Source: Deltaproteobacteria bacterium (GTDB lineage Bacteria > Desulfobacterota > Desulfobacteria > Desulfobacterales > JAFDCJ01). From it: a DNA stretch of 5,106 nt. Below, in pieces: positions 112-5,106 of this stretch. Both the position numbers and the translations under genes were made by a program. Position 1 is the stretch's first letter, and each line of letters begins with the position of its first letter. The DNA lies in assembly GCA_024277475.1 (NCBI GenBank), contig JAJRVC010000013.1, forward strand, positions 1 to 5,106, read 5' to 3'. The notes below the pieces were generated by a model. That model was not told where the DNA came from. It did no database searches and saw only the letters and a program-made list of their open reading frames with translations.

Positions 112-1080
112 TTAAGGGTAATTGACATAAACGTCGGTTAAGACTTCTTCTGGTTTGGGCCAGGAACTTTCCTCGGCAAATTTGACCGCTGCTTCGATTA
201 TTGCGGACGCCTTGGCATCGACCTCGGCGAGTTGAGATTCGGTGGCAAGACCGCGCTCTATCGCTCGCTTTCTGACGTTCTCGATCGGGTCCCGGGCGCG
301 GTTGCGTTCTTTTTCTTCTTTGGTCATATAGAGCATGGCGTCGCCCTCAAAGTGGCCATAGTAGCGGAAAGCGCGGCATTCCATGAGGGCAGGGCCTTCA
401 CCTCTGCGCGCTCTGCCGATGGCTTCTTCAGCGGCCTCGTAAACGGCGAAAAAATCGGTGCCGTCCACCGTAATTCCCGGCATGTCATAGGCCACCGCCC
501 GGTCGACGATACTCTTGGCGGCGCAGTGGTAACCCCATGGCGTGCTCTCGGCGTAGCCGTTGTTTTCACAGACGAAGACCACCGGCAGGTTCCAGCAGCA
601 GGCCAGGTTCATGGCCTCGTGCATCGTGCCCTGCTCAGCGGCGCCGTCACCGAAGAAACAGACCGTCACCTGGTCGGTTCCCAGGGTTTTGGCCATCAGG
701 CCCGATCCACAGGCCAGGGGACCGCCAGCGCCTACAATCCCGTTGGCACCCAACATGCCCTTGTCCACATCGGCTATGTGCATTGAGCCGCCTTTACCTT
801 TACAGGAACCGGTGGCCTTGCCGTATATTTCGGCCATCATCGAGTTTATTTCCACCCCCTTGGCGATGCAGTGACCGTGGCCCCGGTGGGTGGATGTGAT
901 ATAATCGCAATCCGTCAGGTGGGCACACACGCCTACGCCAATTGCTTCTTCACCGGCATACAGGTGGACAAAGCCCGGCAACTTGTCGGCTGCAAACAGC
1001 TCGGCCGCCTTCTCTTCAAACAATCGAATTTTTATCATGGTGGCATACAAATCGATCATTTTCTCTTTGGTGAGACTCAT
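112..1080 (-). CDS. acoA: Acetoin dehydrogenase-type E1 alpha subunit (thiamine diphosphate-dependent)
   Basis: This is a complete 322-residue E1-alpha subunit, the usual length for AcoA/PdhA-type alpha chains. With an E1-beta partner it would bind thiamine diphosphate and Mg2+, decarboxylate a 2-oxoacid or cleave acetoin, and transfer the acyl unit to the E2 lipoyl group in the cytoplasm. The thiamine diphosphate motif is intact: GDG at 144-146 and NN at 173-174. The conserved HRGHG (65-69) and CKGKGGSMH (93-101) segments are present. The stretches LPGFVHLYAGEEA (34-46), HIADVDKGMLGANGIVG (101-117) and RYYGHFEGD (239-247) resemble acetoin dehydrogenase alpha subunits more than pyruvate dehydrogenase, so acetoin is the favoured substrate, though this rests on motif memory. 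The ATG start is set by AAGGAGG eight bases upstream. The gene lies last in the visible cluster, 400 bases after the Lin0512-family gene, and may have its own promoter. No E1-beta follows directly. Confidence 0.9.
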   Translation of the reverse strand: MSLTKEKMIDLYATMIKIRLFEEKAAELFAADKLPGFVHLYAGEEAIGVGVCAHLTDCDYITSTHRGHGHCIAKGVEINSMMAEIYGKATGSCKGKGGSMHIADVDKGMLGANGIVGAGGPLACGSGLMAKTLGTDQVTVCFFGDGAAEQGTMHEAMNLACCWNLPVVFVCENNGYAESTPWGYHCAAKSIVDRAVAYDMPGITVDGTDFFAVYEAAEEAIGRARRGEGPALMECRAFRYYGHFEGDAMLYMTKEEKERNRARDPIENVRKRAIERGLATESQLAEVDAKASAIIEAAVKFAEESSWPKPEEVLTDVYVNYP

Positions 1081-1466: not shown

Positions 1467-1488
1467 GTTAACAGTTTCTTTCAGGGTT
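1447..1488. other. Stem-loop at the 3' end of the Lin0512 gene
   Basis: AACCCCTGAA (1447-1456) pairs with TTCAGGGTT (1480-1488) with one bulged base. Between them lies the perfect palindrome CTGTTAACAG (1465-1474). One arm overlaps the Lin0512 stop codon and the other is part of repeat cluster B. There is no T run after it on the minus strand, so I do not call it an intrinsic terminator. It could affect mRNA stability or be a by-product of the repeats. Confidence 0.4.
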
Positions 1489-1849
1489 TGATAAAGACGG
1501 TTACGGCCGTATTGGCGACCATAATTTGATCGCATTGGGGGGCAAAGCGGGGCACGCAAAGTCCCTGGGCGATCATCCCGCCCTCTACCGCACGGGCTGT
1601 TTTACGGCCGATGGGGACTTCGGCCATTACCTGATTAAGGTCTACCTGGTCGGGGTTTGGTGTTGCCACCAGGATGTCCACCAATACATCTTCCAGGTTC
1701 TGAAGCGCAACGATTTCGAAAAGTCCACACAGACAACTTCTTGAAACCGCATCCTTGACGGCTCGACAGGCGGCTTTGGTGGCATTTTCCCCGTGAATGT
1801 CGATTCCCGTTCCGATTTCGACAATAAAGCGTTTGCGTTCTTTGTCCAT
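1481..1849 (-). CDS. Lin0512-family conserved protein of unknown function
   Basis: This is a 122-residue protein. Its N-terminal region has GTGIDIHG (13-20), which matches the GxGxDxHG signature I recall for the Lin0512 family (TIGR02058/PF09585), a small widely scattered family without known function. The length fits the family. Other visible traits are a TKAACRAVKDAV helix-like stretch (24-35), the cysteines C39, C41, C98 and C106, and no signal peptide or membrane segment, so it is probably cytoplasmic. The ATG start is preceded by AAGGGA about ten bases upstream, a moderate ribosome binding site. It sits between E3 and E1-alpha on the same strand, with 276 and 400 bases of spacer on either side, which hints at a role linked to the complex. 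That link rests on position only. Family assignment is fairly sure; function is unknown. Confidence 0.8.
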   Translation of the reverse strand: MDKERKRFIVEIGTGIDIHGENATKAACRAVKDAVSRSCLCGLFEIVALQNLEDVLVDILVATPNPDQVDLNQVMAEVPIGRKTARAVEGGMIAQGLCVPRFAPQCDQIMVANTAVTVFIKP

Positions 1850-2125: not shown

Positions 2126-3496
2126 TCACCGTTTTGGCAGATACAAGGCCCGGTCCAGACAATCCCGGCCGGCTTCCACCACCGACTCTGAAAATGTGGG
2201 GTGGATCCGGATGCTGTGAGCCAGTTCCTTGACGGTGGCTTCCAATTGCATCGCCAGAACAGCTTCAGCGATCATATCCGTCGCATTGGCGCCGACGATA
2301 TGAACCCCCAAAATTTCTCCATAGCGGGAATCTGAAATGATTTTCACCGCACCGGTCATCTGGTTGCAGGCCATGGCCATGCCGTTGATGGCATAAGGAA
2401 AATCGCCAACTTCTATATCGATTCCTTTTTTTTCGGCTTCTTCCTCGGAAAGACCTACGGATCCCACTTGAGGAATCGTCCAAATACCGCGTGGAACCAG
2501 ATGAAAGTCAAACGTCGAGGCTTCGCCCATGGCATTTTCCGCTGCCGTAACCGCCATGGATGACGCAGCGTGGCTGAGCATCCATCCGCCGGTGGCATCA
2601 CCGATAGCATAGATTCCCGGTACGGATGTCTCCAACTTGTGGTTGACAACAATGCTGCCGTCATCATTCAATCGAACCCCGACCTGGTCCAGTCCGATAG
2701 AGGCAGTATTGGGCCTGCGGGATGAAATCAGAACTTTTTCGACTTCTACAATCTGTTCTTTGGGTCCGGCTAATACAGCTTCAAAACCGTTTTGAGACGG
2801 GCGCAGTGTATCAATACTGTGCTTCAGAAACAGTTCGATGCCCTGTTCCCTGAGAGACTGGGTGACCCGCTGACTGGTGTCATGATCTTCACGGGCAAGA
2901 ATGCGGGAATTGTTGGTAGTAATATATATATTGGATCCAAATATACTGAGTGTATTGGCGATTTCCACCGCCATGGGATTAGACTCCAGGACCAGCACGG
3001 AAGCAGGGATTCGATTCATATCCATAAATTGATCCGTGGTCAAAACTGCTGCTTCGAGACCAGCAATATCAGGAATTTCGAGATGGCTGCCGGTGGCGAT
3101 AATTGTTTTGCCGGTCTCCAGGACCGTACCGTCAACATCTACCTCCTGTGTATTTTTTAAAACCGCATGGCCCCTGACAGCTTCCACCCCGTTGTTGGCG
3201 AGCAGTCCTTCCATTCCCATGCGAATATCACCGGCTACGCCGTTTTTCCGTGTTACTATGGCGTTTAAATCCAGCTCTTCCACCACCGCCTTGATGCCAA
3301 ATTCATTTGCCTGTCGAATATTGTACAGCAGGCCGGCACTGTGCTGCCATACCTTGGAGGGTATACATCCGCGGTTGACGCAGGTTCCACCGATCTCACC
3401 GGCTTCTGCCAAAGCAACCTTACCGCCCAGCTCGGAAGCGCGAATAGCGGCTGCATATCCGCCGGGTCCGCCACCGATCACCACTAGATCGTACAT
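2126..3496 (-). CDS. lpdA: Dihydrolipoamide dehydrogenase (E3) homologue with degenerate NAD site
   Basis: At 456 residues it has the normal E3 length. The family enzyme reoxidises the dihydrolipoyl group of E2 through a disulfide and FAD and passes electrons to NAD+. Visible sites: the FAD-binding GGGPGG (8-13) with E31, the redox pair C39 and C44 in GGTCVNRGCIPSK (36-48), ATG (135-137), the second FAD motif YAIGD (296-300), and the dimer-domain H432 and E437 in HPTFSE. These support dihydrolipoamide oxidation. The second nucleotide fold is odd. The usual GGGxIG is ESNPMA (171-176), the acidic residue expected at the end of the next strand is T194, and the glycine before RRPN is S259. NAD binding may therefore be weak or lost. 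The ATG start has AGAGGTGA five bases upstream. It follows E2 after a 155-base spacer. The symbol reflects family, not proven activity; acoL would be the operon-specific name. Confidence 0.88.
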   Translation of the reverse strand: MYDLVVIGGGPGGYAAAIRASELGGKVALAEAGEIGGTCVNRGCIPSKVWQHSAGLLYNIRQANEFGIKAVVEELDLNAIVTRKNGVAGDIRMGMEGLLANNGVEAVRGHAVLKNTQEVDVDGTVLETGKTIIATGSHLEIPDIAGLEAAVLTTDQFMDMNRIPASVLVLESNPMAVEIANTLSIFGSNIYITTNNSRILAREDHDTSQRVTQSLREQGIELFLKHSIDTLRPSQNGFEAVLAGPKEQIVEVEKVLISSRRPNTASIGLDQVGVRLNDDGSIVVNHKLETSVPGIYAIGDATGGWMLSHAASSMAVTAAENAMGEASTFDFHLVPRGIWTIPQVGSVGLSEEEAEKKGIDIEVGDFPYAINGMAMACNQMTGAVKIISDSRYGEILGVHIVGANATDMIAEAVLAMQLEATVKELAHSIRIHPTFSESVVEAGRDCLDRALYLPKR

Positions 3497-3651: not shown

Positions 3652-4977
3652 TCATGTCATGATTAAATACGGATTCTCCAAATAACGGGCCAGGGTTTGA
3701 AGAAATTCGGCAGCCGGAGCTCCGTCCACCACCTGATGGTCAAAGGTCAAATTCAAAAACATCATCGACCGAATGGCGATTTCTCCTTTATGGACAGCTG
3801 GTTTTTCCTTCACCCGGCCAACACCGAGAATACCGGTTTCCGGCGGCTTCAATATAGGTGTAAGCCCGTCCACCTGAAACATGCTTACATTGGAAATGGT
3901 AAAGGTTCCCCCCGTGACCTCGTCCACCGTGAGGGTTCCTGCGCGGGCTTTACGGGCCAGGTCCCGGGTCCTGCCGGCAATCTGCAAAAGCCCCATTCTG
4001 TCGGCATCCCGTAACACCGGCACGATCAATCCCTCGGGCAAGGCCACGGCAATTCCCATATTTACCGAATCGTGCAGTAGAATCTCATCACCGACAAGGG
4101 TTGAATTCATGATGGGATAATGTTTCAGGGCTCTGGAGGTTGCCAGAATAATGATGTCGTTATAAGATATTCTCACTGTTTCATCTTTTTTAAATTTTTC
4201 TCTAATCGTGTCACGGAATCGAATCATTTCAGTCACATCGACCTCGGTGAAAGCTGTCAATTGGGCCGTGTTTTGAAGACTGGAGTGCATGTTTTCGGCA
4301 ATCGATTTGCGCATACCACTAAACGGAATCGATTTTGTCGGCAAAGCTGCTTCTGTCTGTTGCAGTAATTCCAGAGCCCGCTCAACATCCTCCCGAGTGA
4401 TTTTACCGCCCTCGCCGGTCCCCTGGATAGCAGCGGCATCCATTGCGGCCTGTCGGATCATTTCGGCTGCCAGGGGTGTCATTTTGGGTGTGGGCGGTCC
4501 CTGCTCATGGTAGCGCATGACATCAGCTTCGGTGACCCGTCCCTTGGGTCCGGTGCCGGTTACCTGCGCCAGGTCGACATCCAGTTCCTTGGCCACCCGC
4601 CGCGCCGACGGCGATGCCGGGATGAATTTTTTTTCGGAAGGCTTTTCGGGCGCAGTCGGCGCAGGCTTTGCGGTGGAAGGTGCCGATTTTTCTACGATTT
4701 CACCGACCTGCAGCCCCTCAATCCGTTCGGGCTTTTCGCCGGGTTCGGCAATAATCGCCACGATGGTTCCCACCGGAACCGTCGTTCCGGCGGCAACCAC
4801 GATCTGAAATAAAATGCCGTTGGCCACCGCCTCTACGACGTTGGTTATCTTTTCCGTTTCTACCTCAAAAAAAAGCTCACCCTTTGTGATGGTGTCGCCT
4901 TCGGATTTAAACCATTTGCTGATTAGACCCTCTTTCATCGTCAGGCCCCATTTGGGCATGGTTACATTCAGCGCCAC
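3652..4977 (-). CDS. acoC: E2 dihydrolipoamide acyltransferase, AcoC-like, with two subunit-binding-like domains
   Basis: This 441-residue E2 core subunit moves an acyl group from E1 to CoA through its lipoyl arm, giving acetyl-CoA if the complex uses acetoin or pyruvate. An N-terminal lipoyl domain (about 3-78) has K43 in VETEKI as the expected lipoylation site. A linker rich in A, P, S and K follows (about 96-117). A peripheral subunit-binding domain is at 118-156 ([13 protein letters not shown], then [13 protein letters not shown]). A second similar segment is at 165-204 ([14 protein letters not shown], then [17 protein letters not shown]). The catalytic domain (about 216-441) ends with H414-QVV-D418-G419, the HxxxDG active site. 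The start is GTG, chosen because AAAGGAGG lies six bases upstream and the ATG at residue 7 would cut the first lipoyl-domain strand. The gene overlaps the end of the broken E1-alpha remnant by ten bases. Confidence 0.92.
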
Positions 4978-5106
4978 TTTGATCCTCCTTTCCCCTTACA
5001 GTAACCGGTGACCTTGCCGAAAATTTCGGCCCGCATGCGCCTGATATCCGCTCCGCGAGCCAAAATCATGCCATGGTCGCGGTGTGTGCTGGAGATCCAA
5101 TCCGTA
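4968..5106 (-). pseudogene. 3'-truncated remnant of a second E1-alpha gene (runs off the right edge)
   Basis: The minus strand is open from the window edge to a TGA at 4970-4968 and gives 45 residues. The first 42 align without gaps to residues 58-99 of the complete E1-alpha in this window, with 26 identities by my count, including STHR, GKxTG and CKGKGGS. Directly after GKGGS the similarity stops: MHIAD is expected, but KWR and a stop follow. The thiamine diphosphate motif GDG...NN and the whole C-terminal half are therefore missing, so it cannot be a working E1-alpha. It is a diverged paralogue, not a copy of the 112-1080 gene. The point where homology ends lies just before the E2 start codon, as expected if a deletion removed the rest of E1-alpha and probably an E1-beta. 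An assembly misjoin is the main alternative. Confidence 0.82.
4984..4991 (-). promoter_or_regulatory. E2 ribosome binding site inside the E1-alpha remnant
   Basis: AAAGGAGG on the minus strand lies six bases before the GTG at 4977. The same bases are the AAA, GGA and GGA codons for K, G and G in the GKGGS motif of the truncated E1-alpha. This site decides the GTG start of E2. Confidence 0.75.

Follow-up and report, generated by a model that had tools for sequence, protein, structure and literature searches.

The window, by which we mean the whole stretch of 5,106 nucleotides analysed here (assembly GCA_024277475.1, contig JAJRVC010000013.1), carries four genes on its minus strand, in the order E2 (4977-3652), a lipoamide-dehydrogenase (E3) homologue denoted E3* (3496-2126), a Lin0512-family protein (1849-1481), and E1-alpha (1080-112). 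The genes, and the residues of E3* on which this study turns, are as follows.

3652..4977, minus strand: E2, with a lipoyl domain (Pfam PF00364), an E3-binding domain matched in two stretches (PF02817), and an acyltransferase domain (PF00198)
2126..3496, minus strand: E3* gene, lipoamide-dehydrogenase homologue, 456 aa, intact open reading frame
1481..1849, minus strand: Lin0512-family protein, 122 aa (PF09585)
112..1080, minus strand: E1-alpha of the PDH type, 322 aa (PF00676)
3365..3382, minus strand: redox disulfide C39/C44 (C-x4-C), kept in 141/141 aligned proteins
2969..2986, minus strand: ESNPMA, residues 171-176, replacing GGGxxG of the NAD-binding fold
2963..2965, minus strand: E178, the Glu after the motif (E178 in 141/141, K48 in 138/141)
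2915..2917, minus strand: T194, at the acidic ribose-binding position (end of strand 2)
2720..2722, minus strand: S259, at the Gly preceding R-x-P-N
2186..2203, minus strand: His-Glu dyad H432/E437, kept in 141/141 (pLDDT below 50 here in the single-chain model)

E3 is the NAD+-reducing end of the oxo-acid dehydrogenases. The closest PDB relatives of the E1-alpha in the window are mitochondrial PDH E1-alpha subunits, and the hints regarding the E1 substrate are this PDH-like sequence and an AcoX-like neighbour in relatives. The two E3_binding stretches reported by Pfam in E2 (3652-4977) suggest that one chain may carry two peripheral-subunit-binding domains. Abutting the start of E2 is a second E1-alpha fragment (4978-5106, minus strand, approximately 41 residues, ending in KGKGGS), with no E1-beta in between. 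It is 63% identical to the E1-alpha of the window and 33-71% identical to twelve other E1-alpha matches, and it may mark a deletion junction or be a truncated copy. In most relatives E3* is followed by a LipB-LipA fusion gene; this gene is absent from the window, and a search for its remnants in the gap at 1850-2125 gave nothing significant. The Lin0512 gene recurs in the operon and lies upstream of E1-alpha in several relatives.

As a whole chain, E3* has the fold of a class I flavin disulfide oxidoreductase. A sequence-only reading of the locus had proposed that it lost the glycine motif of its NAD-binding fold while keeping the other half-reaction, and the residues named there, ESNPMA at 171-176 (2986..2969), T194, and S259, are all exact on re-reading the sequence. 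The FAD motif (GxGxxG, present as GGGPGG at 8-13), the C39/C44 disulfide, and H432/E437 are kept as had been said, and so are K48 and E178, which pair with each other in E3s. The canonical motif, given in that reading as GGGxIG, takes the form GGGxxG in the alignment, and the loss consists of the change of GGG into ESN and of G176 into A. As GxGxxA is normal in NADP enzymes, A176 alone is not unusual; the window protein has no glycine at any of positions 171, 173, and 176, and no acid at 194-195 (N195). The match to Pfam Pyr_redox (PF00070, protein residues 175-241) begins at profile position 10, leaving unmatched the start of the profile, where the dinucleotide motif lies. In the structure model the protein has the E3 fold, with a strand (166-170) and a helix (174-185) flanking the changed loop. 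Because E3* scores 428.5 bits against the NCBIfam model TIGR01350 (lipoamide_DH), above the cut-off of 408.8, automatic annotation hides the loss of the NAD motif.

NAD-site residues across the E3* clade

Of the 7998 candidates scored in the database search, 7983 counted as relatives, and the best 120 of these, at 64-92% identity, have both cysteines, the His, and the Glu in 120/120 and the third glycine of the NAD motif in 0/120. Together with the window protein and 20 genes from genomes, they form an alignment of 141 rows, 139 of them distinct. It was compared with 18 canonical E3 controls (17 taken from E3* genomes and a clostridial one, L014), which are non-E3* matches above the TIGR01350 cut-off with a locus given. 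Six residues, C39, C44, E178, D300, H432, and E437, are invariant in the E3* rows (141/141). At the NAD site, the first glycine is found in 108/141 E3* rows versus 18/18 controls, the second in 53/141 versus 18/18, and the third in 0/141 versus 18/18; the acid at 194 occurs in 1/141 versus 18/18, and Gly259 in 3/141 versus 16/18. The changed residues are thus not common in ordinary E3s, a check that had been proposed from the sequence, and ordinary E3 variation is ruled out for the sampled controls.

Glycine loss within the clade is graded. The basal members L010, L012, and L013 retain GGGP[IW][ED]VE; WGxxGPIE and CGSGYIEVE occur in others, and ESNPMA or ESDPMA in the group to which the window protein belongs. 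Purifying selection maintains the gene within the E1-E2-E3* operon, with dN/dS values of 0.09-0.18 across its length (eight pairs) and 0.08-0.31 in the NAD domain, which is folded and constrained and may have some function. Among pairs with 50-60% overall identity, the NAD domains are 44% alike in E3* (319 pairs) versus 56% in canonical E3s (6 pairs), and among those with 70-80% overall identity, 65% (870 pairs) versus 64% (8 pairs), the E3* rows being thinned to every second for this comparison. Loss of the NAD motif is a family trait, beyond chance or sequencing error. Decay to a pseudogene is ruled out by the intact reading frame, the clade-wide occurrence of the trait, and the low dN/dS, and the earlier view of a selected loss rather than random decay is supported by these data and by the complete retention of the disulfide half.

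A folded and constrained NAD domain also speaks for a different reading, in which the changed residues are tolerated and a rebuilt pocket lets E3* go on using NAD+ or NADP+. The score above the TIGR01350 cut-off, the first glycine in 108/141 rows, and an E or D at position 195, one residue past the lost acid, in 104/141 rows point the same way. We consider this reading quite improbable, since the third glycine is absent from all 141 rows, the window protein lacks both the glycines at 171/173/176 and an acid at 194-195, and an electron module other than NAD, described below, often accompanies E3*. A simple switch to NADP is likewise disfavoured for the window protein by the three missing glycines, but may apply to the type-2 E3s discussed below. 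From these residues we infer that E3* would no longer reduce NAD+.

A canonical E3 is also present in 9/12 E3* genomes in the TIGR01350 search, and in the other three (G001, G004, and G009, possibly incomplete) E3* is the sole match above the cut-off. The suggestion that a standard E3 is encoded elsewhere therefore applies to the nine. The nine genomes are also what one would cite in favour of E3* being catalytically minor or structural, with the standard E3 re-oxidising E2 or the iron-sulfur protein described below acting on E2 directly. This seems very unlikely, given that C39, C44, E178, H432, and E437, which a purely structural role does not require, are invariant in 141/141, and that E3* stands alone above the cut-off in G001, G004, and G009.

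The GcvH-like, iron-sulfur, and cytochrome genes

The sequence-only reading had also suggested looking for homologues with a similar motif in similar clusters, and E1-E2-E3* operons do recur among relatives, the hosts of the clade being mostly uncultured deltaproteobacteria. In the scan of genome contigs (best 80 of 583 confirmed stretches), L001-L013 are E3*, and L014 already has GGGVIG. A frequent gene order in relatives is E2, E3*, LipB-LipA fusion, Lin0512, E1-alpha, E1-beta, and AcoX-like, and then a module of three genes encoding a membrane cytochrome, a 140-aa GcvH-like protein, and a 395-aa two-CCG iron-sulfur (FeS) protein; a lipoate ligase frequently comes next. The membrane protein contains 4-11 CxxCH motifs (nine loci) and a NarI-like domain, which is above the Pfam cut-off in one of the two proteins tested and just below it in the other. 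The 5.1-kb window shows E1-alpha, E2, E3*, and Lin0512, and is too short to reveal the module; the closest genome that carries it, G278, has an E3 77% identical to that of the window.

We surveyed 291 genomes of the class of G001 with thresholds of E <= 1e-110 for E3*, E <= 1e-70 for the FeS protein, and E <= 1e-35 for the GcvH-like protein, and found these in 11, 27, and 26 genomes, respectively. Both module proteins are present in 10 of the 11 E3* genomes, the exception being G001; for the FeS protein, 10/11 against 27/291 overall corresponds to a hypergeometric probability of 8.5e-11, a figure that ignores kinship. Seven of nine further E3* genomes (G002-G006 and G009-G012) have the FeS (E <= 1e-60) and GcvH-like proteins, while G009 has only a motif-bearing GcvH-like protein, and G010 has neither. 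In total, both occur in 17/20 E3* genomes, with G001, G009, and G010 giving no FeS match at the thresholds applied. In all 17 the two-CCG protein stands beside the GcvH-like lipoyl protein, although the FeS matches of G002, G011, and G012 are weak, at only 41-44% identity, and those of G011 and G012 are also put at 37-41%. Fourteen of the 17 have a clear multiheme-c/b cytochrome next to the module; the match is weak in G002, and G011 and G012 have none. The FeS gene is on the same contig as E3*, within approximately 13 kb, in 12/20 genomes (G005, G006, G008, G011, G012, G057, G164, G179, G203, G207, G278, and G290, the G006 entry being a second E3* copy), and 10 of these 12 include the cytochrome. 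The module is located away from E3* in G002, G003, and G234, and in G004 and G007 the operon is probably truncated by contig ends.

Two arrangements deserve separate description. The Olavius-associated Delta 1 genome contains a second, divergent E3* operon (L273, G006:C423), in which E1, E2, cytochrome, GcvH, FeS, and ligase genes are contiguous. In the basal loci L274 (G012) and L275 (G011), the FeS gene and a stretch with weak likeness to GlcD lie between two GcvH-like genes, and no cytochrome is within reach.

The module occurs without E3* in 17 of the 291 genomes. In the stretches around it in 16 of these, the only E3-like genes are five type-2 E3s (G033, G126, G240, G261, and G295) and one fragmented E3* (G188). 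At the latter locus (L212, G188:C192) the entire E3* operon is present but fragmented into numerous short frames, resembling an assembly that is decaying or rich in errors. The type-2 E3s keep CxxxxC and GxGxxA, and have A/V at 194 and D/E at 259 in 5/5; one that was scanned scored 345.1 bits, under the TIGR01350 cut-off of 408.8. They carry GAGPWA with an Arg after strand 2, a combination that resembles NADP enzymes and lends something to the rebuilt-pocket reading. The type-2 group is sister to E3* with SH-aLRT support of 99, or 99.7 with the three motif stretches removed. Most simply, an ancestor common to both would have joined the module and lost the NAD contacts, with the remaining glycines lost later in the window's group; the timing is unsure because G011 and G012 lack the cytochrome.

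In seven other genomes the neighbours of the module are a GlcD-like FAD protein and another CCG protein (loci L197, L198, L200, L201, L206, L207, and L211), the CCG protein alone being seen in G274. Since the module thus also joins the GlcD-like/CCG pair or just its CCG member, what these settings share is the lipoyl carrier and not NAD. The labels GlcD, GlcF, and HdrD denote likeness only (HdrD-like by layout), with no NCBIfam cut-off behind them. At L201, a lipoate ligase, an FAD protein, and a radical-SAM/BATS protein come next, a run that may represent the sLpl/LipT/LipS1 lipoate pathway, the names being given by resemblance to what is described in PMC10332631. Four E3*-free genomes are unassigned: G249, G258, and G301 have the module at contig ends, and G218 has a weak match.

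The lipoyl lysine is kept in all 44 GcvH-like loci, and the GKW motif in 35 of them. In these GKW-type proteins (loci L168-L195 and L257-L272), a near-constant extra Cys (30/35) replaces the Pro of the NQDPYG loop; the other nine loci have Pro there. One GcvH-like protein, L132, lies above the TIGR00527 cut-off (119.4 versus 115.85 bits), so that by score it still counts as a GcvH and may serve glycine cleavage. Identity with LbpA was considered and rejected, as there is one extra Cys in 30/35 and a Cys in the N-terminal region in 2/35, not at both termini.

Most full-length FeS proteins have two CCG domains and two [4Fe-4S] motifs. Across the 39 examined, some of which lie outside the module, the CC of the first CCG is kept in 39/39 and the capping His is absent in 37/39. 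No equivalog cut-off was reached against the NCBIfam models, and the nearest solved relative is mycobacterial EtfD (9ojn, 2.6e-34). According to PMC13083937, EtfD accepts electrons from a flavoprotein and feeds menaquinone, and its Thr539 and His583 make the clusters non-catalytic, unlike those of Hdr, in which bridging cysteines react with disulfides. The FeS protein was rejected as an EtfD, since CC and CPSC replace the Thr and His in L132 and most others, and since it is a soluble protein of 395 aa with a separate cytochrome. With CC kept and the His absent, a disulfide/dithiol substrate, such as the lipoyl arm, is favoured over a flavin donor.

The kinship with EtfD nonetheless gives some ground for another route, in which E3* has lost NAD and its FAD donates directly to the CCG protein, in the manner of ETF and EtfD, with the GcvH-like protein in another role such as scaffold or second carrier; the best solved relative is, after all, fed by a flavoprotein and feeds menaquinone (PMC13083937). 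We regard this direct transfer as unlikely. The Hdr-type CC cysteines, mostly without a capping His, argue for disulfide chemistry over a pure electron relay, a lipoyl protein is conserved beside the FeS proteins, and E3* keeps its full dithiol/disulfide machinery.

A possible electron route and its relation to known systems

Ordinary E3 serves both E2 and the H-protein, and for this reason E2 and GcvH both fit as partners of E3*. We think it somewhat probable, judging from sequence and gene order, that E3* is an E3-like flavin disulfide oxidoreductase without NAD+ as acceptor, the electrons of which would pass via lipoyl-GcvH and the CCG protein to the cytochrome. In such a route, dihydrolipoyl-E2 would reduce the C39-C44 disulfide and FAD of E3*, and the electron pair would leave again through the disulfide, reaching the lipoyl arm on the GcvH-like protein by dithiol-disulfide exchange. 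The CCG protein would then re-oxidise this arm at its Hdr-type clusters and feed the membrane cytochrome, from which electrons could move onward to menaquinone or periplasmic carriers. An oxo-acid (or acetoin) dehydrogenase would thereby be wired to the membrane without NADH. The first of these steps is suggested by the invariant residues, and the later ones by gene association and cysteine patterns. Against the mechanism stands the observation that E3 is unnecessary where the module joins GlcD-like genes. The graded glycine loss, the acid at 195 in most rows, the folded and constrained NAD domain, the TIGR00527 score of the GcvH-like protein, and the E3* genomes in which the FeS protein or the cytochrome is weak or missing also weigh against it. 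The earlier idea of a putative electron acceptor other than NAD+ gains indirect support from the neighbouring GcvH-like lipoyl protein, CCG protein, and membrane cytochrome.

More tentatively, and a little short of probable in our judgement, these genes may belong to a respiratory 'lipoyl wire', in which oxo-acid/acetoin complexes and, elsewhere, GlcD-like/CCG hydroxyacid-type dehydrogenases discharge onto a lipoylated GcvH-like protein, and from there to an Hdr-type CCG protein and a multiheme-c/b cytochrome, with E3* as a lipoyl-to-lipoyl electron transferase. If this is true, some anaerobes oxidise oxo-acids directly into the respiratory chain without NADH, and lipoic acid is a general electron carrier beyond sulfur oxidation. 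In addition, the label supplied by TIGR01350, 'dihydrolipoyl dehydrogenase', which counts as NADH-producing in metabolic models, may mislead for E3* genes.

Compared with dihydrolipoyl dehydrogenase (TIGR01350, e.g., Thermus thermophilus 2eq6), E3* has lost the NAD motif, the acidic ribose residue, and the Gly of GRxPN, and is associated with an FeS/cytochrome module. The sHdr-LbpA system of sulfur oxidation (PMC6067878, PMC10332631) likewise combines a lipoyl protein resembling GcvH with a lipoate ligase and CCG iron-sulfur chemistry of the Hdr type, and differs from the present operons, which are carbon-oxidising and have a single two-CCG protein plus cytochrome. LbpA has paired N- and C-terminal cysteines (PMC6067878), and the GcvH-like protein described here is without them. 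In the LbpA model (PMC6067878), an ordinary E3 passes electrons to NAD+, a step that seems to be lost in E3*.

The menaquinone-linked CCG proteins of the EtfD/HdrDE type (PMC13083937, 9OJN) share with the FeS protein two CCG domains, two [4Fe-4S] sites, and a b-heme type of membrane partner. However, EtfD has its CCG part and membrane domain in one chain, whereas the FeS protein here is soluble, with a separate multiheme-c/b cytochrome, keeps Hdr-like cysteines, and has no EtfD Thr/His. The matches of the GcvH-like and FeS proteins to the NCBIfam models GcvH_rel_desulf (NF045810), diclust_near_Sec (NF045663), TfrB, DsrK, and TmcB are weak, at 48/150, 94/530, 179/385, 106/400, and 87/735 bits (score/cut-off), respectively, all far under cut-off. 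As the names of these models show, NCBIfam curators had already taken note of dicluster and GcvH-related proteins from sulfate reducers in this general setting. In a literature search of open-licence PMC papers, none of the papers listed was recognised as describing an NAD-less E3 or the GcvH/FeS/cytochrome module.

Acetoin dehydrogenase (aco) operons encode E1-alpha, E1-beta, E2, E3, and AcoX. The operons studied here resemble them in E1-alpha, E1-beta, E2, E3, and an AcoX-like protein of the NAD-kinase fold, but differ in the E3 without an NAD motif, the LipB-LipA fusion, Lin0512, and the cytochrome/GcvH/FeS module. Each part has known relatives, and what is new is the company that the E3* clade keeps with the CCG/GcvH/cytochrome module.
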